Assembly (NCBI GenBank): GCA_004298045.1
Contig: SCRM01000007.1
Location: 1-64,000, forward strand
Source: Rhodanobacter sp.
GTDB taxonomy: Bacteria > Pseudomonadota > Gammaproteobacteria > Xanthomonadales > Rhodanobacteraceae
Length of the DNA: 64,000 nucleotides
Direction: 5' to 3'
The notes under the pieces were generated by a model that was given only the letters and a program-made list of their open reading frames with translations, was not told the DNA's origin and searched no databases. Made by a program: the position numbers and the translations under genes. Below are positions 17,033-33,003 of this stretch, piece after piece. Every line of letters begins with the position of its first letter. Position 1 is the first letter of the stretch.

Positions 17033-17044
17033 TGCCCTGTCTCC

Positions 17045-17407
17045 TCACGTCCCACTGCCGCCAATACCGGTCAACCCGGGGGTGCTGAACTGCACCAGCG
17101 ACTTGTGCACCAGACCGTTCTCGGCGAGGGTCTTGGACGGATTGGGCTTCCAGTCTTCCTGTTCATGGAACCAGTGCACCTTGTTCCACTTGATCTTTGC
17201 GAAATCGGGGTGCGAGCCATACAGGCCGGGCAATACCTCGTCGCGCAACGCAGCGAACGGCATGGTTGGCGGCACCGGAATGCAGATCGGCGAACAAAAC
17301 ATCGCGTGGTTCTGCCAGTACACGAACAGCAGGCGATTGCCGTGGAAGTTTTCCTCGGCATCCCGCGGCGTACCCTCGTAATCGGGCGAAAGCGCACGAA
17401 TGGTCAT
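17045..17407 (-). CDS. dmpO: phenol hydroxylase P4 subunit
   Basis: The small gamma-type subunit of the hydroxylase dimer (DmpLNO). The 120-residue sequence shows the family features YPEG-like start (SPDYEGTPRDAEENFHGN), FVYWQNHAMFCSPICIPVPP and WNKVHWFHEQEDWKP. The length matches DmpO (119). It follows dmpN by 42 bases. Confidence 0.95.
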   Translation of the reverse strand: MTIRALSPDYEGTPRDAEENFHGNRLLFVYWQNHAMFCSPICIPVPPTMPFAALRDEVLPGLYGSHPDFAKIKWNKVHWFHEQEDWKPNPSKTLAENGLVHKSLVQFSTPGLTGIGGSGT

Positions 17408-17449
17408 TTCAGATTTCTCCGGTCTTAGGCTGAATCACTGGTCGCGGCG

Positions 17450-19015
17450 TTACGCTTCGCTACCGGCATCGGCATGCGTCCAGCGGTTCCAATTGGCGCG
17501 ATCCTCGGACTGGGCAAAGTCGCCGCTGTCGGCCGGTTCGACGTGACACCAATTGACCACATCGGAAAGGCTGCTGCCGCCGCAGTTCCCCTGGAAGATC
17601 TGATTCACTGGCAAATAAGCCTGCACATACTTTTCCGGCTCGTAGTCGAACACGTCCTTGCAGCCGTCCGAGCAGAAGTGGTACTTCGTACCGCGATACA
17701 CGCTTTCACGGGACACGACACGGGTCGGATCGCTGCCCACATCGGTAAACAGCATGGGAATCTGGCAGGTCTGGCACAGCATCGGCAGGCCCGGGTTGAA
17801 CCAGCGCTTGTCCTGCTTGGCCAGCGAATCCCAATACTCGAACCGCGGGCGGTAATACTTGTCGAAGGTGTCCGGATACTTGGCGGACAGCCAATCCATT
17901 TCGTGCGGCTCCGGGATCCACGTATGCATCGCGGTGGCATGCGTGTAGTTGTAGAACGTCGCCCAGGTCTGGTGCGACAGATGGCCTTTTTCCTTGCTCG
18001 CCACTTCGTGGTACTTCGGCAGGCGGATGCCGTAGCGGGCAAGGTCTTCAAACAGCGCACCGCCGTTCTTTTCGAAGTAGATTTCCCACGCCTCCGACCA
18101 GGACATCACGCGTTTCGGCAGCATGTAATCCATCATCATCGCCACCAGCGCCAGCAGGCGATAACCGCGCCAGAACCACTTGTCGATCCAGTGCTGCACG
18201 ATCGGCAGGTTGTCCGGGTCCTGCTCGAGCAGGAACTTGACGATCTCCAGGCCCAGCGTCATGTGCCGCGACTCATCCGACTGCGCGGAGAAGCCGAACG
18301 TCACGGTCGCCATGTCGCCATTGAACGCGGCGCCGGACATGAACGGCATGAACAGCAGATTGGTCAGCACGTATTCGAAACCGAAGGAAATGGCGGTGAC
18401 GAATTCGAATGGGCCAGCCGACATCGCATCTTCGAAGAACGACTTGGGCACCGACAGGTACCACAGCCGGTCGAACATGTACGAGTTTTCGTGCAGACCG
18501 GAGAAGAACTTGTTGTAGTGGCTGATCGTGTGGATCTGGGTCTGCGCATGCCGCAGCTCGTCGATCGCCTGCATCTGGCAAGCCACGCGGGCACCCACGC
18601 CACGCAGGTTCCGGCCGGCCAAGGCATAACCGCGACTGGCCGCGTACTCAAGCGGCGACACACCCTGGAAAAACAGCTTCAACGCATTGATGTAGCGCGC
18701 GTCGGTCACATTGAACTGAGCGTTGTTTTGCTGGAACGCGTCGATAATGGCGTACAGCTTGCGTTCCTTCTCGCCCTGAAACTTCCAGTACGCATCCATG
18801 GTCAGGCGGAACGGGTCCTGCCAGCCTTCCCAGTTGTGGATCTTGATTCCCTCGAACTGGTCATAAGGAAACACCTTGTCCATCGGCTGGTAAGTGGTTT
18901 CCCACCCCAGGTCGCCGGTCATGAGGTTGTAGCGTTCCTTCAGGCTCAACTTGCGCGGTGCCGCCTTGCGGCTGGCTGCATTCGTGGCTTGGACGTCGAA
19001 AGCGGGTTTGTTCAT
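17450..19015 (-). CDS. dmpN: phenol hydroxylase P3, diiron oxygenase subunit
   Basis: Catalytic subunit that hydroxylates phenol to catechol. The 521-residue protein carries a complete carboxylate-bridged diiron site: Glu123, Glu153 and His156 (DELRHAQ), then Glu214, Glu248 and His251 (DESRHMTLG), with the same spacing as in toluene and phenol monooxygenases. The C-terminal part has a Cys cluster (LCQTCQIP and HFCSDGCKDVF), the zinc-binding YHS-like region typical of this subunit. ATG at 19015 is family-like; the longer frame overlaps dmpM. Confidence 0.97.
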   Translation of the reverse strand: MNKPAFDVQATNAASRKAAPRKLSLKERYNLMTGDLGWETTYQPMDKVFPYDQFEGIKIHNWEGWQDPFRLTMDAYWKFQGEKERKLYAIIDAFQQNNAQFNVTDARYINALKLFFQGVSPLEYAASRGYALAGRNLRGVGARVACQMQAIDELRHAQTQIHTISHYNKFFSGLHENSYMFDRLWYLSVPKSFFEDAMSAGPFEFVTAISFGFEYVLTNLLFMPFMSGAAFNGDMATVTFGFSAQSDESRHMTLGLEIVKFLLEQDPDNLPIVQHWIDKWFWRGYRLLALVAMMMDYMLPKRVMSWSEAWEIYFEKNGGALFEDLARYGIRLPKYHEVASKEKGHLSHQTWATFYNYTHATAMHTWIPEPHEMDWLSAKYPDTFDKYYRPRFEYWDSLAKQDKRWFNPGLPMLCQTCQIPMLFTDVGSDPTRVVSRESVYRGTKYHFCSDGCKDVFDYEPEKYVQAYLPVNQIFQGNCGGSSLSDVVNWCHVEPADSGDFAQSEDRANWNRWTHADAGSEA

Positions 19016-19053
19016 GACATTCACTTCGCTGCGGATATCGGATGGAGTGCGAA

Positions 19054-19329
19054 TCAACCGCGCACCAGACAGAACTCGTCGTCGCTTTCGTCGATGTTTC
19101 CCGAAAGCGAGATCAGGCTGAGTTGCAACTCGCGCAGATCCCAATCGCGCCCCAGCCGCTCGCTGACGGATTCGCGCCGCACGACCAGGCGCCCGGGGGC
19201 GTCGATCTTCACCATTGCCGGGTAGTCGATGCGCGTGGCCGCCGGGTTGTCGGCAAGGATGGCGTCGATGATGGAGCGCGCCTCGTCGGTGGCTTGCAGC
19301 GCAATGAAGACATTGTTGTTGGCGCTCAT
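19054..19329 (-). CDS. dmpM: phenol hydroxylase P2, effector protein
   Basis: Cofactor-free regulatory protein (MmoB/DmpM family) that docks on DmpN and couples electron transfer to hydroxylation. The 91-residue length and pattern NNVFIALQATDEARSIIDAIL...WDLRELQLSLISLSGNIDE are diagnostic. Its start codon overlaps the dmpL stop by four bases, indicating translational coupling. Confidence 0.95.
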   Translation of the reverse strand: MSANNNVFIALQATDEARSIIDAILADNPAATRIDYPAMVKIDAPGRLVVRRESVSERLGRDWDLRELQLSLISLSGNIDESDDEFCLVRG

Positions 19330-20363
19330 GCCGTCACCTCTTGCCTGGTGGCCGCCGCGGGCAGGTCAAGTGCGATGCCTGCGCGCTGGGCGCGGGTGGT
19401 GAGTTCGGCGGCGGCATTGGCCACGACCTCCTCGGCCTGGTCGCCGAAGGCGGCATCCGCCCACGGGCGGAGGGCCGTCACCAGCTTGGGCAACCAATGC
19501 TCGATCCAGCCCTTGAGCAGGGACGCGTTGGCCTCCGATTCGGCGACCGCGATGCGCAGGCTCGCATCCACCCAGCGCACGTTTTCCTCGTACCAGGTGC
19601 GGGCAAACTCGGTGGCCAGCGCGTAGCCGCTTGCGGCCTGCGGGAGCAGGGTCTGATCCAGACCGGTCATGGCGGTCGGGTAGACCAGGCCATCGAACAG
19701 GAAATCCTGCGCAAGCAGCACTTCGAACCAGTCGGCGGTGACGAACAGCTCTTCCATGCACTCGCGGATACCTTGCCAGCACGGGTCGTGGAGCCAGCCC
19801 TCGCGGGCCCGGTCGAGCACGCCGGTGGCGTTGCCGTCGAGCAGCAGGCCGATGCGCGTCACGTATTGCGCCAGGCCGAGGCGATCCATCGTCTGGTACT
19901 GCGCGGCCTGGGTAATCGCCGCGCCGTAGCCATAGGCCACCGAGAAGCAATTGTTCATGTTGGCGCCCCATTCGTAGTGACGCATGGGCACCAGGAACCG
20001 GGCAAGGCGCGCACGATCCTCTTCGCCGGCGTTGCGCAACATGCCGCGGCGGTCGATGAACTCGAAATTGTTTTCCTGCACGTCCTGCTGGCGCGCCCGG
20101 GTCTGCACGTACACGCCGTAGTAGTAATGACGCGGATCGCGGAACGCGTACCAGTCCTGCATCACGATGGCGGTGCGGCGCGCGTCGTAGAGCTCGTACT
20201 GGGGCTGCCACAGCGGCCGGTAGTGGAAGTTCACCGTCGGCTGCAGGTCAAACGTCGCTTCCTGGTACCGCGTGGCGGGCACGTCGCCGCCGAACCGACG
20301 CGCGAGGTGCGAGAAGGTCTGGCGAATCGGTCGAATGCCGCTGGTCTTGATGTCGACCTGCAT
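19326..20363 (-). CDS. dmpL: phenol hydroxylase P1 subunit
   Basis: Beta-type subunit of the hydroxylase, structurally like DmpN but without a metal site. The 345-residue protein has family stretches NFHYRPLWQPQYELYD, DWYAFRDPRHYYYGVYVQTRA and LRPWADAAFGD. Length near DmpL (331). Begins 46 bases after dmpK and overlaps dmpM by four bases. Confidence 0.95.
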   Translation of the reverse strand: MQVDIKTSGIRPIRQTFSHLARRFGGDVPATRYQEATFDLQPTVNFHYRPLWQPQYELYDARRTAIVMQDWYAFRDPRHYYYGVYVQTRARQQDVQENNFEFIDRRGMLRNAGEEDRARLARFLVPMRHYEWGANMNNCFSVAYGYGAAITQAAQYQTMDRLGLAQYVTRIGLLLDGNATGVLDRAREGWLHDPCWQGIRECMEELFVTADWFEVLLAQDFLFDGLVYPTAMTGLDQTLLPQAASGYALATEFARTWYEENVRWVDASLRIAVAESEANASLLKGWIEHWLPKLVTALRPWADAAFGDQAEEVVANAAAELTTRAQRAGIALDLPAAATRQEVTA

Positions 20364-20842: not shown

Positions 20843-20941
20843 GCGGCGATGCAGTAGAGGCGTTCGACACGTCCGCTGAACGCTCCGTGAGCACGACTGG
20901 CGTAACGCGCGCCCTGTATTCCACCCATGGAGCTGCCCCCG

Positions 20942-22636
20942 ATGCCCGCCGCCATGCCATCAAGCAGCGATCTGCTCTCCTCGCTGCGGTCCATGATCCG
21001 TTTCGACTCGGAGAAGGGGCTGATCTGGCTCGACCAGAGCCGGATGCTGCTGTTGCATACCGGCGCCTTCGGCGCCCTGCGTCACGAGCTCTTCGAAAGC
21101 CTGGGCGACGAGCACGCCCGTGGGTTGCTGTTGCGCATGGGTTTTGCCTCCGGTCAGCGCGACGCCCAGCTGGCGCGCAAGCTGCTGCCGCAGGTGGCAG
21201 ACCAGGATGAAAGCTTCAACACCGGCCCGCTCCTGCACTCGCTGGAAGGCGTGGTGAAGGTCGTTACGGTCAAGCAGGATCTGGACATCCAGCGCGGTCG
21301 GTTCTACGGCGAATATCTCTGGCAGAACTCGTGGGAGTGCGAGTCACACGTGCGCGAATCCGGGTATTCGGACTCGCCGGAGTGCTGGTCGCAGATCGGC
21401 TACGCGTCGGGCTACACCAGCGCATTCATGAACCGGTTCATCGCGTTCAAGGAAGTGGAATGCACGGCGCAGGGCGACTCGTGCTGCCGCATCATCGGCA
21501 AACCGGCGGAGGAATGGAATGACCCGGATTATCTCGAATATTTTCGCCCCGATTCGATCGCGCACGAACTGCTCGATCTGAAAATGGAAGTGGAGCATCT
21601 GCGTTCGTCCCTGGCGCGCCCGCAATACGACGGCCCCTTGATCGGCGCATCGATTGGTTTCCTGGATGCCATGGCATTGCTGCACAACGCGGCGCCAAGC
21701 CAGATCAGCGTCCTCCTGCTCGGCGAGACCGGCGTCGGCAAGGAAGTTTTTGCGCACTGGCTGCACGACAACGGGACGCGCTCGCGCAAACCGTTCGTGG
21801 CCGTCAACTGCGGCGCCATCCCCGACAACCTGATCGAGGCGGAGCTGTTCGGCGTGGAGAAAGGCGCCTACACCGACGCCCAAAGTGCCCGCGCCGGACG
21901 CTTTGAGCGCGCCGACGGCGGCACGCTGTTTCTGGACGAAGTGGGCGACCTGCCGCCAAGCGCGCAGGTAAAACTGTTGCGCGCATTGCAGTCCGGCGAG
22001 ATCGAGCGGCTGGGCAGCGAAAAGACCACGGTGATCGACGTCCGGGTGGTGGCCGCCACCAACGTCGATCTCCTGAAGGCGGTACAGGAAGGGCGGTTCC
22101 GGGCTGATCTGTATTACCGCCTGGCAACCTTCCCAATTACCATTCCGCCACTGCGCGAACGGCGAGTGGACATTCCCCTGCTTGCCGAGCGGTTCATTGA
22201 GAGGTTTTCACAACCCGTGGGCAAACATACGCGCGGCCTGAGTGATCGCGCATTGCAGACACTGGTTGATTATCCGTGGCCGGGCAACATTCGCGAACTG
22301 GAAAACGTGATTGAACGCGGCGTATTGCTGACGCCGGAAAATGCCGAAATCGACGAGCATCACCTGTTTCCGCGTACCGGCGCCACACCAGCACAGCATT
22401 TGCAGGCGTCGGGCGCCATCGGCAGCGATAATGCCGGCCACGGCAAGCTGGTGGTCGAGCGCGTGCTGGAATCCGGCATTGGTTTGGAAGAGCTGGAAGA
22501 CGGCCTGCTCAACATGGCCGTGAATCGCTCGGGCGGAAACCTGACCCGCGCGGCGAAGCTGCTAGGCATCAGCCGGGCCAAACTCGCCTATCGGTTCAAG
22601 TCCTCCAAGCCGGGCGGAGAACCTTCGGCAAGCTGA
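20942..22636 (+). CDS. dmpR: phenol-responsive sigma54 activator, DmpR/MopR type
   Basis: Effector-sensing enhancer-binding protein for the divergent phenol operon. The 564-residue protein has an N-terminal XylR_N/V4R aromatic-sensing domain (about 15-215, with the zinc/phenol-pocket region ECESHVRESG...CWSQIGYASGYTS and the Cys-rich VECTAQGDSCCRI), a linker coiled coil, an AAA+ core (Walker A GETGVGKE, Walker B GGTLFLDEVGD, PWPGNIRELENVIERG) and a Fis-type helix-turn-helix at the C terminus (LTRAAKLLGISRAKLAYRF). The sigma54-contact loop reads GAYTDA (residues 308-313) rather than the general GAFTGA. ATG at 20942 is preferred because GGAG lies nine bases upstream; an in-frame ATG at 20927 has no ribosome site. 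Confidence 0.93.
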   Translation: MPAAMPSSSDLLSSLRSMIRFDSEKGLIWLDQSRMLLLHTGAFGALRHELFESLGDEHARGLLLRMGFASGQRDAQLARKLLPQVADQDESFNTGPLLHSLEGVVKVVTVKQDLDIQRGRFYGEYLWQNSWECESHVRESGYSDSPECWSQIGYASGYTSAFMNRFIAFKEVECTAQGDSCCRIIGKPAEEWNDPDYLEYFRPDSIAHELLDLKMEVEHLRSSLARPQYDGPLIGASIGFLDAMALLHNAAPSQISVLLLGETGVGKEVFAHWLHDNGTRSRKPFVAVNCGAIPDNLIEAELFGVEKGAYTDAQSARAGRFERADGGTLFLDEVGDLPPSAQVKLLRALQSGEIERLGSEKTTVIDVRVVAATNVDLLKAVQEGRFRADLYYRLATFPITIPPLRERRVDIPLLAERFIERFSQPVGKHTRGLSDRALQTLVDYPWPGNIRELENVIERGVLLTPENAEIDEHHLFPRTGATPAQHLQASGAIGSDNAGHGKLVVERVLESGIGLEELEDGLLNMAVNRSGGNLTRAAKLLGISRAKLAYRFKSSKPGGEPSAS

Positions 22637-22678
22637 AAGCCCCGATAACAGGGCGTGGCGCTTCCTCCGCTCGCCGCA

Positions 22679-23584
22679 TCAGGCCGCCAGCACGCTACCG
22701 GTAATGATGGCCAGCATGGCGACCGGATACAGGCTGGTCAGATCGAACAGGCGTGCCGCCCTTCTCCCCGCCCTGTCGCGGACGAGCCGCACCGCCGGAA
22801 CCAGGAGCAGGGCGCTGCCGGCAACCAGTACCGCCGCCGTGTAGCCCCACCCCAATGGCAGCGGCGACAGCACTGGCAAGGCCAGGCTGAGGAGGACGGT
22901 CAGCGCCAGCAGCGCCAATACGGCCCACCCCGCGACCGCGGGGCCGAACACCAACGGGATGGTGCGCGCGCCGACCCGGCGGTCTTCTTCCACATCGTTC
23001 CAGTCGGCGGGGATGTTCTGGCCGCCGATCTCCCACGCCATCAGCCAGGCCACCATCAACGCCATGCCGCCAAGCGCGGGGCGCGGCACCACGGTGAGCA
23101 CCGCGGCAATCGGCCCCAGCGCCTTCACCAGCCCGCTGAGCAGCACCCGCCAGGCGCTCACCCGCAGCAGCCGGCAATAGGCGATCTCCAGCACCGGGGC
23201 AGCCAGCACCACCACGATCAGCCAGGGGTTGAGCCATGCCGCGCCGACCAGCGCCACCAGATACCACGCGGCGAACCAAGCCACGCCGCGCCGCATGCTG
23301 AGGCGCCCCTGGGCCACCGGATGCCGCAGCGGCGAGGCTTCCACCGCATACCCCGGATTGGGGCCGGCGCCGGCAAACTTCTCCTTGTCGGTCACCACGC
23401 CCACCAGGTCGTTCAACGCATACAACGCCGTATACCCGGCCAGCGCGACCACGATCGCCACGATCAGCACCGGCCACGGCGGCAGCCGGCCCAACCACAG
23501 CAGCGCGGCAAACCCGGGCATCGCCACGTCGATCACGCTATGGCGGGAGCGCGACAGGGCCAGCAAGGGTTCGAGCGCACTCAC
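22679..23584 (-). CDS. UbiA-family prenyltransferase (EboC-like)
   Basis: A 301-residue polytopic membrane protein of the UbiA superfamily with about eight to nine hydrophobic helices. The first Asp-rich motif is NDLVGVVTD (residues 58-66): the usual NDxxDxxxD has Gly in place of the middle Asp. The second is ADWNDVEEDRRVGARTIPLV near 200. Such enzymes join a prenyl diphosphate to an acceptor. The GTG start overlaps the methyltransferase stop (GTGA). It is the last gene of a five-gene operon that also encodes a sugar-phosphate cyclase, so the acceptor may be a cyclitol-derived compound (inference). A UbiA-family gene (eboC) also accompanies a cyclase in the ebo clusters. Confidence 0.85.
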   Translation of the reverse strand: MSALEPLLALSRSRHSVIDVAMPGFAALLWLGRLPPWPVLIVAIVVALAGYTALYALNDLVGVVTDKEKFAGAGPNPGYAVEASPLRHPVAQGRLSMRRGVAWFAAWYLVALVGAAWLNPWLIVVVLAAPVLEIAYCRLLRVSAWRVLLSGLVKALGPIAAVLTVVPRPALGGMALMVAWLMAWEIGGQNIPADWNDVEEDRRVGARTIPLVFGPAVAGWAVLALLALTVLLSLALPVLSPLPLGWGYTAAVLVAGSALLLVPAVRLVRDRAGRRAARLFDLTSLYPVAMLAIITGSVLAA

Positions 23585-24291
23585 GGCTGGCGGGTGAAGC
23601 ACATCATGTAGTTGACGTCCTCGCGGCCAGGGGCCACCCGAAACCGGCGGGTGAACGGCTGGTACATGAGGCTGGCGGAAGCGTCGTGCACCAGCCCGCT
23701 CTGCGCGGCCCACGCGCGCAGTTCGTCGGGGCGAATCAGGCGGGCATATTGGTGCGTGCCGCGGGGCAGCAGACGCAACACGTACTCGCCGCCGAAAATG
23801 GCGAACAGCCACGCTTTCCAGGTTCGGTTGATGGTGGAGAAAAACACCTTGCCGCCCGGCTTCAACAGCCAGGCGCAGGCAGCCACCACGCCGGCGGGGT
23901 CGGGAACGTGCTCCAGCATCTCCATGCACGTGATGACGTCGAACGCGCGCGCCTCCTGTCGGGCCAGCACCTCGATCGTCTGCTCGGCATAGGCGATGTC
24001 GAGCGCCGCGGCGCTGGCATGCTGGCGCGCCACCTGCAGCGTCAGCGGCGATTGGTCGATACCCATCACCTGGGCACCGAGCCCCGCCAGCGCCTCGGCA
24101 AAAATGCCGCCACCGCAGCCGACGTCGAGCAACCGGGCACCGCGCAGCGGCACCCGCTCGGCCACGAATCCGACCCGCAGCGGATTGATGACATGCAGCA
24201 TGCCCATCTTGCCGTGCGGGTCCCACCAGAGGTTGGCGACCCGCTCGAATTTCTCGATCTCGAGGCGATCAACATTCGACGGTGCGTTCAT
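23581..24291 (-). CDS. UbiG-like SAM-dependent O-methyltransferase
   Basis: A 236-residue class I methyltransferase closely resembling 3-demethylubiquinone 3-O-methyltransferase (UbiG, 240 residues): FERVANLWWDPHGKMGMLHVINPLRVGFV, the SAM-binding LLDVGCGGGIFAEALA near 55, and MEMLEHVPDP with KPGGKVFFSTINRTW. The gene overlaps the cyclase gene by 23 bases and the prenyltransferase gene by four, so it is translated with them. It could be the true ubiquinone enzyme, but its position in a cyclase/prenyltransferase operon argues for a dedicated tailoring methyltransferase; this depends on whether another ubiG exists in the genome. Confidence 0.85.
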   Translation of the reverse strand: MNAPSNVDRLEIEKFERVANLWWDPHGKMGMLHVINPLRVGFVAERVPLRGARLLDVGCGGGIFAEALAGLGAQVMGIDQSPLTLQVARQHASAAALDIAYAEQTIEVLARQEARAFDVITCMEMLEHVPDPAGVVAACAWLLKPGGKVFFSTINRTWKAWLFAIFGGEYVLRLLPRGTHQYARLIRPDELRAWAAQSGLVHDASASLMYQPFTRRFRVAPGREDVNYMMCFTRQP

Positions 24292-25408
24292 GTCGCTCCT
24301 GGAACCGCGCGCGCAAAAAGGGGATGGCCGACGCCAGCTCGGCCGGGTGGATATCGTCGACAAAGGTGCATTCGCCGATGGCGGTGGGCATGGGTATCCG
24401 CTGGCGGCCATTGCGATGCAGGATGCGATCCTGCACGGCAGCCCACATCGCTTCGCCGCTGAGCAGGCCGATGTCCGGCGCCAGCCCCAGCGCGTCCACC
24501 AGCGCAAACACGCGATGGGCCGCGCCGGCCGGCAGCAGGCCGCGGCCACTGGCCACCGCCACCGAAACCAGCACATCCAGCAATACCGCTTCGCCATGCA
24601 GCAGGCGGTCCGCATGCAGGGCTTCCAGCCCGTAGCTGAAGGTGTGGCCAAAATCGACCTTGCGTGCGAGCTCGTCTTCGTACAGGTTGGGTGTCAGCTC
24701 CTGCAGCATGCCTTCCACCGCGGTATCGAGCAGGTGCTGGCCGGCGGCCGTGGCAAAGCGGGTGGCCAGGCTGTCGGCGCCCGCCACTTCGAGCGCGCGG
24801 AACAGCGCGGCATCGCGGATCACCGCCAGCTTCACGATCTCGCCCATGCCATTGCGCAAGTGGCGCATCGGCAAACTGGCCAGAAAACCCGCATCGAGCA
24901 ATACCGCGAGCGGCGGCTCGAACGCGCCGAGCCGGTTTTTCGCCCCTTCGAAATTCACGCCGCATTTGATGCCGATGGCCGCATCCACGTAGCCCATGAG
25001 CGTGGTCGGGATCTTGATATGCGGTACCCCGCGGCGATGCGTCGCCGCGAGAAACGCCACCACATCGGTCAACACGCCGCCACCGATCGCCAGGATCGGC
25101 TCATCGCGGCGATGGATCGGGAAATTTTCCAGTTGCCGGGCAAGCGCCCGCCAGGCGTAGACCGTCTTGTTGTCCTCGCCCCCGACAAACGGCACCAGCC
25201 GCGCGTCGATCCCGTGTGCTTGGAACCAGGCGCGGATGCGCTGCCCATACAGGCGTTGCACGGCGTCGTCGACCACCACGAAACGCCGCGAACCGGCGCC
25301 GCGGCCAAACTCGGCAAGCAGCGGGTTGTCACGCGCAAACAGCTGCGGCGCCTGGATGACGGCATAGTCCACCGGGCGGCTGGCGCACACCTGCCAACGC
25401 GTGGTCAT
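24269..25408 (-). CDS. sedoheptulose-7-phosphate-cyclase-like enzyme (DHQ synthase superfamily, EboD-like)
   Basis: A 379-residue sugar-phosphate cyclase. NAD-binding segment ILAIGGGVLTDVVAFLAATH starts near 105; RGVPHIKIPTTLMGYVDAAIGIK and GVNFEGAKNRLGAFEPP are the pattern of 2-epi-5-epi-valiolone synthase-type cyclases rather than of AroB. Metal ligands are present: Glu190 (NGMGEIVKLA), His255 (DFGHTFSYGLE) and His271 (LLHGEAVLLD). It should turn sedoheptulose 7-phosphate or a related sugar phosphate into a cyclitol. The ATG overlaps the LuxS-like stop (ATGA). The specific product cannot be told from sequence alone. Confidence 0.85.
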   Translation of the reverse strand: MTTRWQVCASRPVDYAVIQAPQLFARDNPLLAEFGRGAGSRRFVVVDDAVQRLYGQRIRAWFQAHGIDARLVPFVGGEDNKTVYAWRALARQLENFPIHRRDEPILAIGGGVLTDVVAFLAATHRRGVPHIKIPTTLMGYVDAAIGIKCGVNFEGAKNRLGAFEPPLAVLLDAGFLASLPMRHLRNGMGEIVKLAVIRDAALFRALEVAGADSLATRFATAAGQHLLDTAVEGMLQELTPNLYEDELARKVDFGHTFSYGLEALHADRLLHGEAVLLDVLVSVAVASGRGLLPAGAAHRVFALVDALGLAPDIGLLSGEAMWAAVQDRILHRNGRQRIPMPTAIGECTFVDDIHPAELASAIPFLRARFQERHERTVEC

Positions 25409-25887
25409 GCCGCGTCCAACCACACCGGCCGTGCTGCCAGTATTTCTGCGGCCACCGCCTGCGCGCCGGCCAGATCGTGGTTCTGCCAGTTGCCGCACTG
25501 GTCGACCCGCGCATACGGCACCGCGGTGGCGGTGGCCACGCCGGCAAGCAAGGTGGCAAGGGCATCGCCCAACACCGCGACGCGGCCTTCGTCGGCAAAC
25601 CCCAGGTAGAAGCCGGTCTGGCACCCCATGACGCCAACGCTCAGGAAATGCGCCGGCAGCAGGCGGGTGAACCCTTCGAGCAGAAAGTGCTCCAGCGAAT
25701 GCAGCACCGCGGTGGACAAACCCGCCCCGGCGTTGGGCTTGCGCACGCGCAGATCCACCGCATAGACCGCGCTGCCCGCCGGGCTGACGTGCACCGCGCG
25801 CAGCTTGAGCCGCGGCGCCTTGAGCAAGCGGTGATCCAGCTCACCGACCAGGGCCACCGGCCAGCCGAGGTGCGCCACGTCAACCAT
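25405..25887 (-). CDS. LuxS-family protein (S-ribosylhomocysteine lyase fold)
   Basis: A 160-residue protein with the full LuxS signature. The zinc ligands and base of HxxEH are His63, Glu66 and His67 (LHSLEHF), the catalytic Cys is Cys89 in VMGCQTGFYL, and the third zinc ligand is Cys131 in DQCGNWQNH. The N-terminal LDHRLLKAPRLKLR and VYAVDLRVRKPN also match. LuxS converts S-ribosylhomocysteine to homocysteine and DPD through ketose shifts and beta-elimination. Here it is embedded in a cyclase/prenyltransferase operon: it overlaps the TIM-barrel gene by eight bases and the cyclase by four. Either it detoxifies the product of SAM-dependent methylation, or it has been recruited to act on a sugar intermediate; sequence does not decide. 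Confidence 0.85.
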   Translation of the reverse strand: MVDVAHLGWPVALVGELDHRLLKAPRLKLRAVHVSPAGSAVYAVDLRVRKPNAGAGLSTAVLHSLEHFLLEGFTRLLPAHFLSVGVMGCQTGFYLGFADEGRVAVLGDALATLLAGVATATAVPYARVDQCGNWQNHDLAGAQAVAAEILAARPVWLDAA

Positions 25888-27166
25888 CGGTCACCTCGCT
25901 CGGCGTGGCGGCCGCGACATTGACGCGATCGACCACCGGGCCCAGCTGCGCCAGGGTCGCGGTCAGCGCGTGGTGCCAATCGTCCACGTGGTGATAAAGC
26001 TCGACCGCGGCATAGCCGGCAAATCCGCCGCGCGCCAGCGCGGAAAAGCTTGCCGCGAAATCCAGCGTGCCCTGCCCCGGTATGTCGTGATAGTGGGCAA
26101 TGCCGGTCAGCGTGTTGGCGAGCCGGCGTTCAAGCCGGCCGGCCCGCGGTTGGCTGCGCAGCCAGCGCGCTACCGGGCGCGCCCGTTCGAGCACGTCGTA
26201 GCTCAGCCCCGGCAGGGAAATCAGCCAGGTGAATATTTCCTCGTCGAGCGGCGACGACCGCACCGGCAAGCTCAGGTAATCCACCATCTCGACTGCGCCC
26301 GTCGCCCCGGCTGCCGCCAGCAACGCATCCACGCGGGATGCCTGCGTGCGCCCCAGGATGCCATCGCGGAACAGGACGGGATACTCGCGGTCAAGCAGCA
26401 GGAAACTGCTGGTATCCGGCAAGTGAACCAGCAGCGTCGCCCCCGTGCGCGGCACGACCAGCGCCGCAGAGTCGTTGACGATGCGCACGTTGCAGCCGGC
26501 AGCCGCATCGGAGACATGCAGGTATTTGGCCTGCGCCGCCGCACTGGCCAGCGCCGCAACATAGTCGCGTTCGGAGCAATAGGCGTGGCACAGGTCGATG
26601 TGCAGGCCGAAGCGGGGCGAACCTACCGCGGCCACCAGCGCCTGTCCTTCGGCCAGGGTTTCCACCTGCATGCCTGGCTCGGGTTCGATCACCAGGGTGA
26701 TGTCGTCGTCATCGCGCAGCTCGGCAAGGCAGGCGTGGATGGACTCGACCAGCGCTGCGGCGGGATCGAAATCGGGGTGCTCCACGTGCTCGCGCCGCCG
26801 AAAGCCGCTGCCAAACGTCACCAGCGGCGCACCCAGCACACGCGCCACGCGGATGCCCCGTCGGATCAGGTCGATGCGCCGTTTCCTCGCTGCCGGCTCG
26901 ACCGCCAGCAACGAGGGTTCATGCGGGCGTTGCGGGTCGAAGAAATGGGAAGCGGTGGCAACGCACGCCGGCTGGACGCGCAACCGGTCGAACTGCCGGC
27001 ACACCGCGGCAAGCTCGGTGTCGTCCAGCTCGAACACGTTGAACTGCCGGCGATGGCACGCGACTTCCACCCCGGCATAACCGGCGCGGTCGATCGCGGC
27101 AACCGCCTGGGTGAAATCCAGCCCGGTAAGGCCGGAGGTGCTGTAGGCAAGCTGGATCGCGGACAT
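25880..27166 (-). CDS. xylose-isomerase-like TIM-barrel protein (EboE-like)
   Basis: A 428-residue protein whose first part (about 1-270) is an AP-endonuclease/xylose isomerase-type barrel: AAIDRAGYAGVEVACHRRQF, LVIEPEPGMQVETLAEG and FGLHIDLCHAYC carry the usual Glu, His and Asp metal positions. The C-terminal region ends with GFAGYAAVELYHHVDDW, another typical barrel end, so the protein may be two barrel-like halves or a long single one. It is the first gene of the five-gene operon. Barrel proteins of this kind (EboE) accompany UbiA and cyclase genes in ebo clusters. The reaction is unknown; isomerisation or epimerisation of a sugar phosphate is the family expectation. Confidence 0.75.
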   Translation of the reverse strand: MSAIQLAYSTSGLTGLDFTQAVAAIDRAGYAGVEVACHRRQFNVFELDDTELAAVCRQFDRLRVQPACVATASHFFDPQRPHEPSLLAVEPAARKRRIDLIRRGIRVARVLGAPLVTFGSGFRRREHVEHPDFDPAAALVESIHACLAELRDDDDITLVIEPEPGMQVETLAEGQALVAAVGSPRFGLHIDLCHAYCSERDYVAALASAAAQAKYLHVSDAAAGCNVRIVNDSAALVVPRTGATLLVHLPDTSSFLLLDREYPVLFRDGILGRTQASRVDALLAAAGATGAVEMVDYLSLPVRSSPLDEEIFTWLISLPGLSYDVLERARPVARWLRSQPRAGRLERRLANTLTGIAHYHDIPGQGTLDFAASFSALARGGFAGYAAVELYHHVDDWHHALTATLAQLGPVVDRVNVAAATPSEVTDG

Positions 27167-27572
27167 GGGTCACCTGGCAACCACCATGCTGCCGTCGCCA
27201 CCCGGCGCGGTCCTCCAAGAACGGGCCAGCGCGGTTGCGCAGCGACGGACGCGGCATGAACCCCGGCATCGTGCCGAACCCGACCACCACCGCGATTGAC
27301 CCCCGTCAGCTTTCCCCCCAGGTGGCACACGAGGCAGATTGTCGCGGCCCCAAACGCATACCGAGCCAGATCACCGTCGCGGATCGGCAGACCCGCGAGA
27401 ACCGAACCGCCGCGACTGGCCGCGCGCAGTGGTGGCGGGCAACCCCTTCAGCCCTGCAATCGGTGCCATGGCAGACCGGCTTCCGGTTTTCCGTCGTTGG
27501 CGGATCCTGCGCCGCCCAAAGTACGAACGGGATGGCGCGCCACCTTTCAGCCATGACGGATACCCCCGCCCT
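27167..27572. other. non-coding gap upstream of the cyclase operon
   Basis: About 400 bases between the end of the TolC-like gene and the start of the leftward five-gene operon. No convincing coding frame, hairpin with T-run or consensus promoter was recognised; it should hold the promoter of the cyclase/LuxS-like operon. Confidence 0.5.
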
Positions 27573-28901
27573 TCATTCGGCACCGAGGTTGCCTGCCAGG
27601 GCCTCAAGCGCAACCTGCTGCTCGGCCATCGCCTGCTCGACGCCAAGCTGGCCGAGGCGCTGGTCATCCTGCCGCAGCTGAAGTGCGAGGTCCTGCGCCG
27701 CAGACAGGTCGCCGGGCGATGCGGACTTGGCCAGTGCTTCGGAAACACGCGTCTGGACCGCCACGCTTCGGGTCAGCTCGGCTTGCTGCGTTTGCAGGAG
27801 CACACGGTCCTTCACCAGTCGCGCGATGTCGGACTGTGCCTGGACGAGCCGGAGCGTGTATTCGTCGTGCAATGCCTGGCGCGTGGCCTTCGCCACCGCC
27901 ACGTTGCCGCGGTTGCGGTTGAAGATCGGCAGGGTCAGCGAGACCTGGAAATTTCGCGAGCTGATGGCGTCGGTATCGCGGCCGCGGGAAAACCCGATGT
28001 CGATTGCGGGGAACTGCCGCCAGATCGCGCGACGATAGCGAGCGTCCGCGCTCGCGTAGCCGGCCTGCAACGCCACGAGGTCGGGACGGCGTTGCGCAAG
28101 CGTGGCGAGGTTGCGGGTGATCTCCGTCTCGCTGGGCGCTGCCACTGCAGTCGATTCCCGCAACGGCAACTTCGCTTTCGGGGACAGGCCAAGCATGGCG
28201 CTGAGGGCCTGCTGGCTCGCCAGCAGCTGCCGCGCCATGTCGTCCCGCCGCGACTGCACCGCCTGCAGCGCGGATTGATCGAGGGCGAGATCCGCCAGCG
28301 ACACGTCACCGCGCTGCTGGACCTGCGCCAGTTGCGCATGCAGGTGCTCGCGTGCCCGGACCTCGTCGCGCAGCACGGCCAGCATCCTGGCCTGGTAGAC
28401 GCAGCGCACGAACAGCTGCCGGGAGGCGGTGATCACCTGCCACTCCTGCCAAAGCAGATTCAGGTCCACCTGCCGCTCGGACGCATGGGCGGCGCGCACA
28501 TCCAAGGCATGGGTGAGCAAGGCCGTGAGGTCATAGGACAGGCCCACACTGTAGGCCGTGCTCCCACCACCGCCGCCAGTGGGATAGCCGCGCGAAAGAT
28601 CCAGCACCGGATCGGGCAGCAGCCCGGCGGCAAAGGCCTGCGCGTGGCCGATGCCACGCTGATCCCGGGCCACCCGCAGCATGGGGTTGCTGGCGACGGC
28701 CAGCATCGCCACGTCGGTCATGTCCAGGCCGTGGGACGGATCGAACACATGCTTGCGCAGCGCCGGGACCGGCATCGATGCCGCATCCACTTTCAAGTCC
28801 GCGACGTGGTCTGGCAGGCGGGCATCCTGCGCCAGCGGCAGCGGCTGGTAGGTCGCGCAACCGGCCAACGCCGCGCACAGAGCGCACCCCAGGAGCCGCA
28901 T
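27573..28901 (-). CDS. TolC-like outer-membrane efflux lipoprotein
   Basis: A 442-residue outer-membrane factor for the RND pump encoded upstream. It has a lipoprotein signal with lipobox LAGC (Cys15) followed by CATYQPLPL, then long heptad-like helices (for example the ALDVRAAHASERQVDLNLLWQEW and LARLVKDRVLLQTQQAELTRS regions) and the two OEP repeats. Start ATG at 28901 overlaps the pump stop by one base. It is the last gene of the MFP-pump-OMF operon. Confidence 0.9.
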   Translation of the reverse strand: MRLLGCALCAALAGCATYQPLPLAQDARLPDHVADLKVDAASMPVPALRKHVFDPSHGLDMTDVAMLAVASNPMLRVARDQRGIGHAQAFAAGLLPDPVLDLSRGYPTGGGGGSTAYSVGLSYDLTALLTHALDVRAAHASERQVDLNLLWQEWQVITASRQLFVRCVYQARMLAVLRDEVRAREHLHAQLAQVQQRGDVSLADLALDQSALQAVQSRRDDMARQLLASQQALSAMLGLSPKAKLPLRESTAVAAPSETEITRNLATLAQRRPDLVALQAGYASADARYRRAIWRQFPAIDIGFSRGRDTDAISSRNFQVSLTLPIFNRNRGNVAVAKATRQALHDEYTLRLVQAQSDIARLVKDRVLLQTQQAELTRSVAVQTRVSEALAKSASPGDLSAAQDLALQLRQDDQRLGQLGVEQAMAEQQVALEALAGNLGAE

Positions 28902-31900
28902 CACGGCCGCGTACCCCAGCGCAGATAGAGCGCGGGCAACAGGTTGGTGGACAGCACCGCGCTCCACAGCACGCCCCCCAGCACCACGATCGCCAGGCCC
29001 TGTTCCGGTGCGGCGCCGGTGCCCAGGCCCAGCGCCGTCGGCAGCATGCCGAGCACTGCGGTGAGCACGGTCAGCACGATCGGGCGCAGACGCTCGTGGG
29101 TGGCGCGGCGCACGGCGTCCTCGCGCGGCATGCCCTGCCGTTCGTAGGCGCGCACGTAGGCCAGCAGCACGATGCCGTGGTTGAGGCTGACGCCAACCAG
29201 GGTCAGCAGGCCGATCAGGCCCGTGGCGTTGAGTCCCACGCCGGAAATGGCCAGCGCCAGCGCCGCGCCAGTGAACGCGAGCGGCGCCTGCAGCAGCAGG
29301 ATCAGTGGCAGTCGCCAGCCGCCAAACTGCAGGGCCAGGATGCCCAGGGTGAGCAGCAGGGCCAGCAACACGGCCACTCCCAGCGCTTCAACCGTGTGGA
29401 TCAGCTCCGGATACATGCCGCCGAAGGCCACGCGGTATCCGGCCGGCCATGACACCGACGACAGCGCAGCCTTCGCGGCGGCGATGGTGCTGCCCAAGGG
29501 GCCGGTCGGCGTGGCCATGATGCTGAGCGCGCGTTCGCCATCGAGGTGTTCCAGCTGGTTGGGCTGTGCCTGGAGCGTCAACTGCGCCACGTGCGCCAAC
29601 GGCATCCAGCCCTTGGGGCTGAAAATCGGTTCGCGCCCGAGCGCGGCAAGGTCGAGATGCGGAGCGTCGGCCTGGCGCATGAACAGCTCGCGCTGGCTGG
29701 CGCCATACGGCAGGGTCGCCAGCACACGGCCGTGCAGCAGCAGATCCAGCTGATCGCCGAGCTCGGCCGGCGCCAAACCGGCGCTGCGCAGCGCATCCAT
29801 GCGCGGCGCGATCTGCAACTGGGTCACCGGATAGGCATCGTTGTTGAAGATGTCGGTCAACGCCGCCACCGTGCGGAGCCTGGCGGCAACGGTCTCCGAC
29901 AGGCTGCGCAAGGTGTCGATCTGGTCGCCGTAAAGCAGCACTTCGAACGGCTGGGGCAAGCCCGACAGGCTTTCGCCCACGCGCTCGATAGTCGGCGTGC
30001 CGATGCTCTGCACCACGCCCGATTGTTGGACGACGGCGCGGAAATGGCGGGCAATCCGGTCGAGGCTGTTGGCGTCGAATCCCGGCTTGAGCACGATCTG
30101 CATCTCGCCGGCGAAGCTGTGCTCGGTGTACGCGGATTCCTCCGGCGAGCCGTTGCGCACGAACACATGCGCCACCGCGGGATCCGCCTGCAGGGCGTCG
30201 CTCATGCGCCGCGATACGGCGATGGCATCGTCCAGCGAGGTGCCGGGCGCGAAGGTGAAGCTGTCGAGCAGGACGCCCTCGTTGGGCAACGGCAGGAAGT
30301 TCACCGGCACGATGGCCAGCGCTCCGATGGAGATCACGAAGGCGACGGCGGCAGCGGCAAGGCTGGCGCCAGGCCGGCGCAAGGTCACATCCAGCAACTT
30401 GCCGTTGAGGCGCGCCAGCGCGCGCATGAAGCGCTGGCCACTGGGGTACACGCGGCCTGCGCGTGCGCCGTGATGTCCCAACGCCGCCGGGATCAGGGTC
30501 AGCGACACACACAGCGAAGCCAACAGCGCCAGGCTCATCGCCAGCGCGAACGGCCGCATGAACAATCCCGCCAGGCCCGATATCGCCAGCAGGGGCAGAT
30601 AGGCCGCCACCGTGGTGAGCGTGCCGGTGGTGTCGGCGACCGCGATGTCCGCGACGCCGGCTTGCACGCCGTCCCATCCATCGCGGCCGTTTTCCCAGCG
30701 GTGCTGGATGGCTTCGAGCACGATGATGCCGTCGTCCGCCAGCAAACCCACGGCCAGCGTCAGGGCGCCCAGCGTCAGCAGGTTGAGGCTTTGTCCCAGC
30801 GCATACAGGCCGCCGATGGCGAGCAGCACGCTGGCGGGAATGCTCAGGGCCAGCACCCCCACGCCGTGGTGGCGGCCCAGGATCCAGATCAACACCAGGA
30901 TCGCGAGCGCGCCGCCGATCAGGAGGTTGCGCATCAGGTCGTGCCCGATCAGCGCCACCAGATACGACTGGCGATAGATCGGCACCCAGGTGACACCGTG
31001 CGGTAACTGCCCCCGCAACGACGCCAGAGTGTGCATCACCGCCGTATCGACCGGTATCGTCGACGCCCCCGCCTGCTTGAACACGATCAGCCCGAGCCCC
31101 GACTGACCGTCGACCTGCACGCCGTAATGCACATCGGGCGGCCCGTTGACCACCTGGGCGAGCGCGCCCAGCGGCACCGCTCCCCCGGGCGCGGGCACGG
31201 GAATGGTCAGGATGTCGCCGACCTCGACCGGCAGGTGCCGCACCTCCAGCAGGACATCCTGGTGCCCGAGCGTGGTGCGCCCGGCCGGCGCGAGCACGAC
31301 GGCATGGCCGACCGCGGCAGCCAGGGCGTCCACGCCGACATGGTGCTGGATCAACGCCGCGGGATCGGGCTGGATCCAGATCGTGGGCGGCCCCGCGCCG
31401 AACAGTTCCACGCGCTGCACGCCAGGCACCGCGCGCAGCGCCGGCAAAACGTGGGTACGTATCGCGTCTTCGGCCTGCCACAGCGGCACGTCGGCTGGCA
31501 CGCGTACCCCGGCGTCCAGCACCTCGTTCATCGCGTTGCCCATGATCTCGGCATGCAGCGCAACCTGCGGCGGCAGGCTGGAACGTGCGCGGTCGATCGC
31601 GCTGTAGACCGCCTGCAGGTCCAGCTGCGGATCGCTGCCTTCGGCAAAGCGCACGGTGAATTGCGCGCTGCCCTGGGCAATGGTGGTGCGCAGGTTGGCG
31701 ACGCCCTGCAGCCCGAGCAGTTGCCCTTCGATCGGGCGGGCGACCAGCGATTCCATCTCCAGCGTGGCGTAGCCCGGCGCATGCACCACCACGCCAACCT
31801 GCGGAAAATCAAACCGCGGCAGCACCTCGGCCGGAATCCGCCAGAGCGCATAGGCGCTGTAGGCGAGCAGCAGGCCAAAGACCATCGCCCACGGCAGCGG

Positions 31901-31927
31901 CCGACGCAGCAGGGCGAGCCATTTCAT
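28901..31927 (-). CDS. RND efflux pump, inner-membrane subunit
   Basis: A 1008-residue AcrB/CusA-type proton-driven pump. Begins with the standard helix LPWAMVFGLLLAYSAYALWRIPAEVLPRFDFPQVGV. The helix-4 proton relay is LLADDGIIVLEAI with adjacent Asp residues, as in AcrB-type drug pumps (CusA-type pumps differ). A full second half follows, ending in LLTLVGVSLNHGIVLLAYVRAYERQG and SAVLSTNLLPALYLRWG. The operon is under a CusR-type box, hinting at metal-ion control. The gene overlaps MFP and outer-membrane genes by one base each. Metal or drug specificity cannot be settled from sequence. Confidence 0.92.
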   Translation of the reverse strand: MKWLALLRRPLPWAMVFGLLLAYSAYALWRIPAEVLPRFDFPQVGVVVHAPGYATLEMESLVARPIEGQLLGLQGVANLRTTIAQGSAQFTVRFAEGSDPQLDLQAVYSAIDRARSSLPPQVALHAEIMGNAMNEVLDAGVRVPADVPLWQAEDAIRTHVLPALRAVPGVQRVELFGAGPPTIWIQPDPAALIQHHVGVDALAAAVGHAVVLAPAGRTTLGHQDVLLEVRHLPVEVGDILTIPVPAPGGAVPLGALAQVVNGPPDVHYGVQVDGQSGLGLIVFKQAGASTIPVDTAVMHTLASLRGQLPHGVTWVPIYRQSYLVALIGHDLMRNLLIGGALAILVLIWILGRHHGVGVLALSIPASVLLAIGGLYALGQSLNLLTLGALTLAVGLLADDGIIVLEAIQHRWENGRDGWDGVQAGVADIAVADTTGTLTTVAAYLPLLAISGLAGLFMRPFALAMSLALLASLCVSLTLIPAALGHHGARAGRVYPSGQRFMRALARLNGKLLDVTLRRPGASLAAAAVAFVISIGALAIVPVNFLPLPNEGVLLDSFTFAPGTSLDDAIAVSRRMSDALQADPAVAHVFVRNGSPEESAYTEHSFAGEMQIVLKPGFDANSLDRIARHFRAVVQQSGVVQSIGTPTIERVGESLSGLPQPFEVLLYGDQIDTLRSLSETVAARLRTVAALTDIFNNDAYPVTQLQIAPRMDALRSAGLAPAELGDQLDLLLHGRVLATLPYGASQRELFMRQADAPHLDLAALGREPIFSPKGWMPLAHVAQLTLQAQPNQLEHLDGERALSIMATPTGPLGSTIAAAKAALSSVSWPAGYRVAFGGMYPELIHTVEALGVAVLLALLLTLGILALQFGGWRLPLILLLQAPLAFTGAALALAISGVGLNATGLIGLLTLVGVSLNHGIVLLAYVRAYERQGMPREDAVRRATHERLRPIVLTVLTAVLGMLPTALGLGTGAAPEQGLAIVVLGGVLWSAVLSTNLLPALYLRWGTRP

Positions 31928-32928
31928 CAGTCTGGCGGCGTGTATTGGGCGGCGAAATCGCGGTGGTAGAGCAGGTACGCGTCGCGCACCACCACCGGCA
32001 CTCCGGGCTGCAATCCCGCGGTGACCACGACGTCGCTGCCCTGCGCCGGGCCGGGCGTGACGGCCCGGGCCGCCAGCTTGCCGCCGACGGCGGTGAGCAC
32101 GTACCACTTGCCGGCATCGAGGATGATCGCCTGCGCGGGCACGGCCACCGCGGGCTCGGCGCGGCCGCGCCAGCTCACCTCGCCGGTTTCCCCGGCTTGC
32201 CATGCCGCCGGGTCGACCGGCGCGAAATCCAGCACGCGTGCGCCATTCCCGGCGCGGGCGGGCAGCTCGGCCACCAGCCTGACCGGAACCGATGCCCCGT
32301 CATCCGATGGCGTGAAGCGGCCGACCGATCCGGCCGGCGGCGGGGTGCCGAACCACTCGGCGCGCAGCCACGACCGGCCGCGCGGCACCAGCGTCAGCAC
32401 CGGCGCGCCGGCCTGCACGTCGGTACCGGACGCGACGGCGATGCTGGCGACGGTCGCGCCGGTGGGGCTGCTCAACGCCGCCTGCGCCTGCAGTGTCGCC
32501 AGGTTCGCCCGCGCGGCGACCGCGTGGCCTTGCGCGGTGTCCAGCGCCGTACGCGCCGCCTCCAGTGCCTGGCGGTTGGTGGTCAGCGGATAGGTGCGCT
32601 GCGCCGAAGCCATGCTGCGCGTGGCCGCCGCCAGGACTTGCTGCGCGGCCTGCGCCTGCGCCCGCGCCGTGGCGAGTTCGCCGTCGAGCTGTGGTCCGCC
32701 CAGAACGGCCAGCACCTGCCCCGCGGCCACCGTTTGCCCGGGGACCACCGGCAGGCGGACGACACGTGCCGCCGTCGCGGCGTGCAGCACCAGGGGCGCG
32801 GTGGCTTCCACGCGCGCCCAGGCGCGGGCCTGCGGCTGGTAGTTCAGTGCCCGCGCAGGCAGGGTCACCGGTGTGGCCATCACCGGCGTGGCAAGCGCCA
32901 TCAACAAACCCGCGCGCCACCAGAACAT
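31927..32928 (-). CDS. RND efflux membrane-fusion protein
   Basis: A 333-residue HlyD/AcrA-type adaptor. Signal peptide FWWRAGLLMALATPVMATP, then lipoyl-like halves (VLAVLGGPQLDGELATARAQAQAAQQVL and ASIAVASGTDVQAGAPVLTLV), a short helical hairpin and the beta-barrel/membrane-proximal part. Start ATG at 32928 has AGGAG ten bases upstream; upstream in-frame starts at 32952 and 32988 lack one. First gene of the leftward efflux operon; a CusR-type palindrome lies 75 bases upstream of the start. Confidence 0.88.
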   Translation of the reverse strand: MFWWRAGLLMALATPVMATPVTLPARALNYQPQARAWARVEATAPLVLHAATAARVVRLPVVPGQTVAAGQVLAVLGGPQLDGELATARAQAQAAQQVLAAATRSMASAQRTYPLTTNRQALEAARTALDTAQGHAVAARANLATLQAQAALSSPTGATVASIAVASGTDVQAGAPVLTLVPRGRSWLRAEWFGTPPPAGSVGRFTPSDDGASVPVRLVAELPARAGNGARVLDFAPVDPAAWQAGETGEVSWRGRAEPAVAVPAQAIILDAGKWYVLTAVGGKLAARAVTPGPAQGSDVVVTAGLQPGVPVVVRDAYLLYHRDFAAQYTPPD

Positions 32929-33003
32929 GCCTCTGCGCTCCTGTCGTGCCATCAACAGGAGGCAAGCGTAAGGAGACCCGCCCGGCAAACCGCGATCAAA
33001 CGG

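Follow-up and report, generated by a model that had tools for sequence, protein, structure and literature searches.

The 64,000-nucleotide stretch of Rhodanobacter sp. DNA analysed here (the window) carries a LuxS-family gene whose immediate neighbours encode a TIM-barrel protein, a sugar phosphate cyclase, a methyltransferase and a prenyltransferase. The LuxS family is regarded as having a single reaction, through which the quorum signal AI-2 is made, and the question raised by this locus is whether the gene encodes such an enzyme or a member of the family that has been given another task. The first-pass annotation had put forward two unusual answers, namely a LuxS fold recruited to act on a sugar in a cyclitol pathway, or an enzyme that recycles the SAH produced by the operon's own methyltransferase.

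The five genes follow one another on the minus strand in the order TIM barrel, LuxS-like, cyclase, UbiG-like methyltransferase and UbiA, and each neighbouring pair overlaps (Table 1). As had been noticed from the sequence, the LuxS-like gene overlaps both the TIM-barrel gene (8 bp, 25880-25887) and the cyclase gene (4 bp, 25405-25408, ATGA); the methyltransferase and cyclase genes share 23 bp, and the UbiA and methyltransferase genes 4 bp. The start of the cyclase gene was read from the sequence, and the match of the cassette cyclase profile extends to 25408. A promoter scan of positions 22300-27700 found none.

Table 1. Genes of the five-gene cassette, in the order in which they lie on the minus strand of the window.
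Gene	Description	Position	Strand	Evidence
TIM-barrel gene	428 aa, xylose-isomerase-like, first gene of the cassette	25880..27166	minus	PF01261, E 1.6e-31
LuxS-like gene	160 aa	25405-25887	minus	PF02664, catalytic residues, predicted fold
Sugar phosphate cyclase gene	379 aa, EEVS-like	24269..25408	minus	PF01761, E 1.6e-31
UbiG-like O-methyltransferase gene	236 aa	23581..24291	minus	TIGR01983, 251.1 bits (cut-off 102.95)
UbiA-family prenyltransferase gene	301 aa, GTG start	22679..23584	minus	PF01040, E 7.4e-26

Directly adjoining the cassette are genes for phenol hydroxylase components (15956-20363, minus strand: a ferredoxin-type reductase, a PF04663 protein and two PF02332 proteins) and for a XylR-type sigma-54 activator (20927-22636, plus strand). 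Upstream on the cassette's strand lies an RND efflux set (27573-32988, minus strand) made of a fusion protein, an AcrB-type pump and an outer membrane factor. Searched by tblastn, the cassette-type loci described below, some of which have short flanks, showed no match to these efflux genes.

By Pfam family and by fold, the protein belongs to LuxS (PF02664; 1j6x_A). The 160-aa ORF matched the Pfam LuxS model with an E-value of 1.4e-24 (87.1 bits, cut-off 27), and its AlphaFold2 model (mean pLDDT 95.0) had H. pylori LuxS as first Foldseek match (1j6x_A, TM 0.86/0.91, rmsd 1.1). All the LuxS residues that the first-pass annotation had pointed out are in the ORF (HxxEH, MGCQTGFY and QCG), and the key columns are invariant in our alignment A1. 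The NCBIfam LuxS equivalog models scored the protein at best at 91.6 bits against a cut-off of 208, and it is over the cut-off of none of the ten models among the matches listed, being far under in each case.

Relatives were taken as the best 80 of at least 570 matches from a scan of genome contigs. The 19 closest among the matches listed (L005-L023, 42 to 64% identity) belong to Gammaproteobacteria, Betaproteobacteria and Chloroflexota. The TIM-LuxS-cyclase-methyltransferase-UbiA order is kept in 17 of these 19 loci, a count that includes L005 and L017, whose end genes are cut, while L008 and L023 are truncated where their contigs stop. More distant members of the same cassette type are found in Desulforadius (L024), Zooshikella (L025), Paracaedibacteraceae (L058) and Amycolatopsis (L075). 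Over the 23 cassette-type loci fetched, a cyclase is present in 22, a TIM barrel in 21, either one in all 23, a methyltransferase in 18 and a UbiA gene in 18, whereas the 57 canonical LuxS loci, of which 49 span 18 kb or more, have no cyclase, no TIM barrel, no UbiA gene and a single weak methyltransferase match (L066, 32% identity). A further 53 survey LuxS loci, with about 1.5 kb per side, were excluded from these neighbourhood counts. Beyond the cassette and antisense cassette ORFs, one family recurs in at least three loci, an ABC-ATPase-like one (by eye) found in 3; ORFs were called greedily for this purpose and some were missed.

The TIM barrel and the LuxS-like domain form a single ORF in Desulforadius (L024, 592 aa) and in Zooshikella (L025, 535 aa, open frame 544). 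A second kind of fusion, joining the cyclase and the UbiG-like methyltransferase in one frame, is seen in a Natronospirales MAG (L023, 288-2123). In Desulforadius, the core trio of TIM barrel, LuxS-like domain and cyclase lies without a methyltransferase or UbiA gene nearby, and an EamA transporter gene adjoins it on the opposite strand. In Zooshikella, the TIM-LuxS gene and the cyclase gene lie at the ends of two different contigs, and an ORF that is transporter-like by eye follows the cyclase. Two cassette-type LuxS copies were seen in the Paracaedibacteraceae genome of L058, in which SahH was not found; the second is followed by an MFS transporter gene (L164, 8876-13040), in the order cyclase-TIM-LuxS-MFS, with neither a methyltransferase nor a UbiA gene nearby. 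In Amycolatopsis acididurans, a cyclase-LuxS pair lies near genes that, by eye, resemble those of inositol catabolism and include one for an IolE-like TIM barrel (L165, 7272-18410), and tblastn found no cassette-type TIM barrel within 19 kb in Amycolatopsis. A cassette-type cyclase was detected in 24 of 24 host genomes with 342 to 678 bits, other cyclases scoring at most 201.5. Since the core trio occurs without a methyltransferase nearby, the LuxS-like gene is tied to the cyclase and TIM genes and not to the methyltransferase.

In a tree of 65 LuxS rows (the 23 cassette rows and 42 chosen by hand from 110 canonical ones), the cassette rows fall on one side of a branch (96/88) found in 98% of 200 bootstrap trees; the Paracaedibacteraceae and Amycolatopsis rows (L058 and L075) are long branches. 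The Rhodanobacter row is one of seven in a proteobacterial clade (100/98), which itself lies within a clade of 16 rows (99/96); the other nine rows of the latter are Chloroflexota. Because the proteobacterial clade nests with these Chloroflexota rows, the tree suggests that the cassette LuxS was transferred into Proteobacteria. A LuxS profile match was found in 51 of 398 Pseudomonadota genomes (30 of the 52 match places were fetched), and only the genome of the window (G000) scores as cassette-type (221 bits, next 173). In Actinomycetota, 25 of 396 genomes have a LuxS match and the only cassette-type one is that of G022 itself. Full-length cassette TIM barrels were found in 12 of 400 Chloroflexota, where there was also a single weak partial match, and in 1 of 398 Bacillota, namely the host G019 itself. 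The distribution of the cassette is rare and patchy.

These surveys also gave a weak second LuxS-like match in G866 (L163), where the only ORF that passed the filter looks, by eye, more like an alpha/beta hydrolase. A record named Bacillus subtilis DE0224 (L044) carries a LuxS of the H. pylori type, unlike the LuxS of strain 168, and may be misnamed.

The complement of SAH-related genes was examined in the Rhodanobacter genome, which is 95.91% complete. Searches for sahH, pfs and another luxS, proposed with the first-pass annotation, found SahH (E 8.7e-146) and neither Pfs nor a second LuxS: the MTAN/Pfs model TIGR01704 had no match in this genome, PNP_UDP_1 matched just two genes, which encode a methylthioinosine phosphorylase and an AMP nucleosidase, and the gene of the cassette is the only match of the LuxS profile. 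The assumption that relatives lack LuxS also held, with LuxS profile matches at E <= 1e-5 in none of the nine listed genomes of the same family or order. A housekeeping LuxS had been expected to show as a genome without sahH and with pfs and as a protein grouping inside canonical LuxS, which is not what was found, the protein standing in a separate clade. Judged by gene content and phylogeny, the gene is not a housekeeping LuxS.

Among the 24 hosts (G000 included), SahH is present in 20 and was not found in G003, G016, G018 and G021, and MTAN is over the cut-off in 2, with weak sub-threshold matches in 15 more; most of these genomes are MAGs and may be incomplete. No canonical LuxS was seen in the 24 hosts, as 23 have one LuxS match and G021 has two, both cassette-type.

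We then compared residues, using the B. subtilis LuxS numbering for the columns of A1. Over the 23 rows of A1, the columns H11, R39, H54, E57, H58, C84 and C126 are invariant. By contrast, the N-terminal motif SFxx[DN]H is found in 0 of 25 cassette-type rows (24 with an N-terminus, and L023 without it) and in 110 of 110 other LuxS rows, while GW.{5,7}GE[LI][DN]H is found in 21 of the 25 and in 0 of the 110. In the alignment, Ser, Cys or Asn takes the place of Asp78 in all 24 cassette-type rows, position 78 being Asp in 89 and Tyr in 21 of the 110 others, and Arg65 is retained by all 110 of the others but by only 6 of the 24. Lys35 was dropped as a diagnostic residue, since it was present throughout the first canonical set (57 of 57) but in no more than 65 of 110 rows once the Actinomycetota and Pseudomonadota surveys were added. 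Since canonical rows themselves have Tyr78 (21 of 110) or no Lys35 (45 of 110), single positions are no proof of a changed substrate.

The lost residues are presumably those that hold the homocysteine side of the substrate. In S. suis LuxS, Asp76 is described as hydrogen-bonding the substrate carboxyl (PMC4618692), and this residue would be the counterpart of Asp78 because the catalytic Cys is number 82 in S. suis against 84. Ser6, His11 and Arg39 are given as important for full LuxS activity (PMC3019222), and substrate access is assigned to residues 125-131 and the surroundings of the N-terminus in a published LuxS survey (PMC5029033). Read from these columns, the LuxS-like clade appears to have retained the chemistry and altered its grip on the substrate. 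Compared with LuxS (PF02664, EC 4.4.1.21), the cassette type has in common the fold, the His-His-Cys metal triad, the catalytic Cys and Glu and the His11 and Arg39 columns; it differs from canonical LuxS as a separate clade with SFxxDH and Asp78 lost and a GW..GELDH N-terminus, in its cyclase and TIM neighbours or TIM fusion, and in that Pfs was not found in G000.

The partner enzymes indicate the kind of pathway. Against solved structures, the cassette cyclase profile A3 scored 443.9 bits with 4p53, 351.1 with 5tpr and 200.9 with the next. We take 4p53 to be ValA/EEVS and 5tpr to be DDG synthase (deposited as a cyclase and a 3-dehydroquinate synthase, respectively); with these identities, the cassette cyclase is nearer by profile score to sedoheptulose-7-phosphate cyclases than to DHQS, and it is likely a sedoheptulose-phosphate-type cyclase since both structures score far above 200.9 bits. 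The nearest solved relatives of the TIM barrel by sequence and fold are ketose 3-epimerases, some of which act on sugar phosphates, and UlaE, with the dehydratase AsbF lower down; its top Foldseek matches are tagatose 3-epimerase and UlaE. The UbiG-like gene is over the UbiG cut-off and is one of two UbiG matches in the Rhodanobacter genome, the other being at C12. Cassette methyltransferases form a clade separate from nine housekeeping UbiG proteins (100/99), and in ten Chloroflexota hosts (G002, G006, G008-G015) the UbiG-like gene is over the cut-off and no other gene matches UbiG at E <= 1e-25.

Taking these observations together, the LuxS-like metalloenzyme has very probably given up S-ribosylhomocysteine (SRH) as a substrate, and we think it likely that it has been recruited to a sugar or cyclitol step, either before or after the cyclase. 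The recruitment proposed with the first-pass annotation thus finds support in the clade, the residues, the synteny, the fusions and the genome content, the activity being a prediction. In the LuxS reaction, a carbonyl migrates from C1 to C3 via metal-bound enediols, and the thiol is then eliminated. With the homocysteine side gone, this chemistry would suit an alpha-hydroxy ketone, for instance a C7 cyclitol or a heptulose phosphate. In our model, the cyclase would turn sedoheptulose 7-phosphate, or an epimer of it, into a valiolone-like C7 cyclitol by ring closure, and the TIM barrel and the LuxS-like enzyme would probably catalyse consecutive steps after it. These two would move the carbonyl along the polyol via metal-bound enediols, with Cys and Glu as proton shuttle, and would also eliminate water, so that C7H12O6 would become an aromatic polyol C7H8O4 by two dehydrations. 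The aromatic polyol could then be prenylated by UbiA and O-methylated by the UbiG-like enzyme, and the cassette product would be a prenylated, O-methylated compound derived from a C7 sugar. An aromatic polyol is the usual substrate of UbiA and UbiG. We favour action after the cyclase because the path from valiolone to an aromatic polyol takes two dehydrations and two enzymes of the cassette would otherwise have no job; given recruitment, somewhat more than half of its probability would go to this aromatising order and most of the rest to action before the cyclase.

Acting before the cyclase, the two enzymes would be an isomerase and a 3-epimerase that turn sedoheptulose 7-phosphate into another heptulose phosphate, from which the cyclase would make a new cyclitol. 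We regard this as a plausible but less probable course, in an estimate that overlaps with the one for recruitment in either order. It agrees with the gene order TIM-LuxS-cyclase, with the TIM-LuxS fusions and with the TIM barrel, which is nearest to ketose 3-epimerases, some acting on sugar phosphates; because it is more epimerase-like than dehydratase-like, the TIM evidence taken by itself favours the pre-cyclase order. However, the Paracaedibacteraceae order is cyclase-TIM-LuxS, and ring aromatisation ahead of prenylation would then, we infer, be left wanting cassette enzymes.

That the LuxS-like protein is instead a working SRH lyase, either recycling SAH from the UbiG-like methyltransferase or making AI-2, appears improbable. 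All catalytic and metal residues are retained, the operon contains a SAM methyltransferase, the predicted fold is close to that of H. pylori LuxS (rmsd 1.1), and MTAN is over the cut-off in 2 of the 24 hosts; together with the weak MTAN matches in 15 more and SahH unseen in four, this leaves some room for SRH in some hosts. But MTAN has no match in G000 and none over the cut-off in 22 of 24 hosts, SahH is found in G000 and in 20 of 24 hosts overall, SFxxDH is missing from 25 of 25 cassette-type rows (one truncated), and the ten listed LuxS equivalog models score far under cut-off. The SAH-recycling option of the first-pass annotation is disfavoured by SahH in the genome, by Pfs not being found, and by the core trio occurring without a nearby methyltransferase (Desulforadius, Paracaedibacteraceae and, across a contig gap, Zooshikella). 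Still less probable is a role without catalysis, as a passive partner or a metal-binding subunit for the TIM-barrel enzyme: fusion and tight linkage to the TIM barrel are what such a partner would show, but Cys84, Glu57, His11, Arg39 and the three metal ligands are invariant in 23 rows, needlessly so if the protein were idle, and Amycolatopsis has the LuxS-like and cyclase genes with no cassette-type TIM barrel found within 19 kb. Recruitment to a sugar or cyclitol step is the reading we retain.

A more specific form of the aromatising order is that the cassette encodes a chorismate-independent route to a ubiquinone-like quinone, in which the TIM barrel and the LuxS-like enzyme aromatise the C7 cyclitol; we consider this unlikely. 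It would have the C7 cyclitol, formed from a C7 sugar phosphate, provide six ring carbons and one exocyclic carbon, as in ubiquinone, with UbiA attaching the prenyl tail and O-methylation falling to the UbiG-like enzyme.

Parts of the cassette resemble known systems. The cyclase profile, in being best to 4p53 (443.9 bits), resembles C7-cyclitol clusters, and we know of no LuxS-family gene in known C7N clusters. With the ebo cluster (eboA-F), the cassette shares a sugar phosphate cyclase, a UbiA prenyltransferase and a xylose-isomerase-like TIM barrel, and an isoprenoid-cyclitol product has been proposed for that cluster (PMC5133447, PMC9235831). The cassette differs from ebo by the added LuxS-like and UbiG-like genes, and only its five genes recur among neighbours. 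Identity with ebo was rejected since the TIM barrel fails the EboE model NF035939: TIM_EboE had no match listed for the window's TIM barrel at a maximum E of 10 (HMMER filters drop most matches above 0.1), and the L018 TIM barrel reached E 0.064, with 12 bits against 250. No EboC-named model was among the model matches of the window's UbiA protein, and the library may hold no such model.

The gene set itself was found once in print, in an uninterpreted appendix table (PMC8756737). In the nirS neighbourhood of Anaerolineales SURF MAG 42, Table A1 of that appendix lists a xylose isomerase-like protein, LuxS, EEVS, UbiG and UbiA (consecutive accessions, RJP53741 to RJP53745), presents the five ORFs as nirS neighbours with no function proposed there, and gives the automatic annotation of the LuxS-like gene as S-ribosylhomocysteine lyase (PMC8756737). 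LuxS homologues are reported absent from Chloroflexi in the LuxS survey (PMC5029033). Among the papers listed in searches of the open-licence PMC literature, we found none that assigns a LuxS-family protein to cyclitol or prenyl biosynthesis.

The annotation of such genes as S-ribosylhomocysteine lyases implies AI-2 signalling. We know of no earlier functional split of the LuxS family, and if our reading is true, a clade that left SRH with its catalytic core intact would be the first. C7-cyclitol chemistry would likewise gain a metal-dependent carbonyl-migration enzyme. If the quinone reading were true, Chloroflexota otherwise without a UbiG match would own a methoxylated benzoquinone of their own, and the LuxS-like enzyme would be an aromatising cyclitol isomerase-dehydratase. 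More generally, recruitment of the LuxS fold to this cassette would suggest that Chloroflexota and Proteobacteria contain a prenylated, methoxylated lipid that has yet to be characterised.
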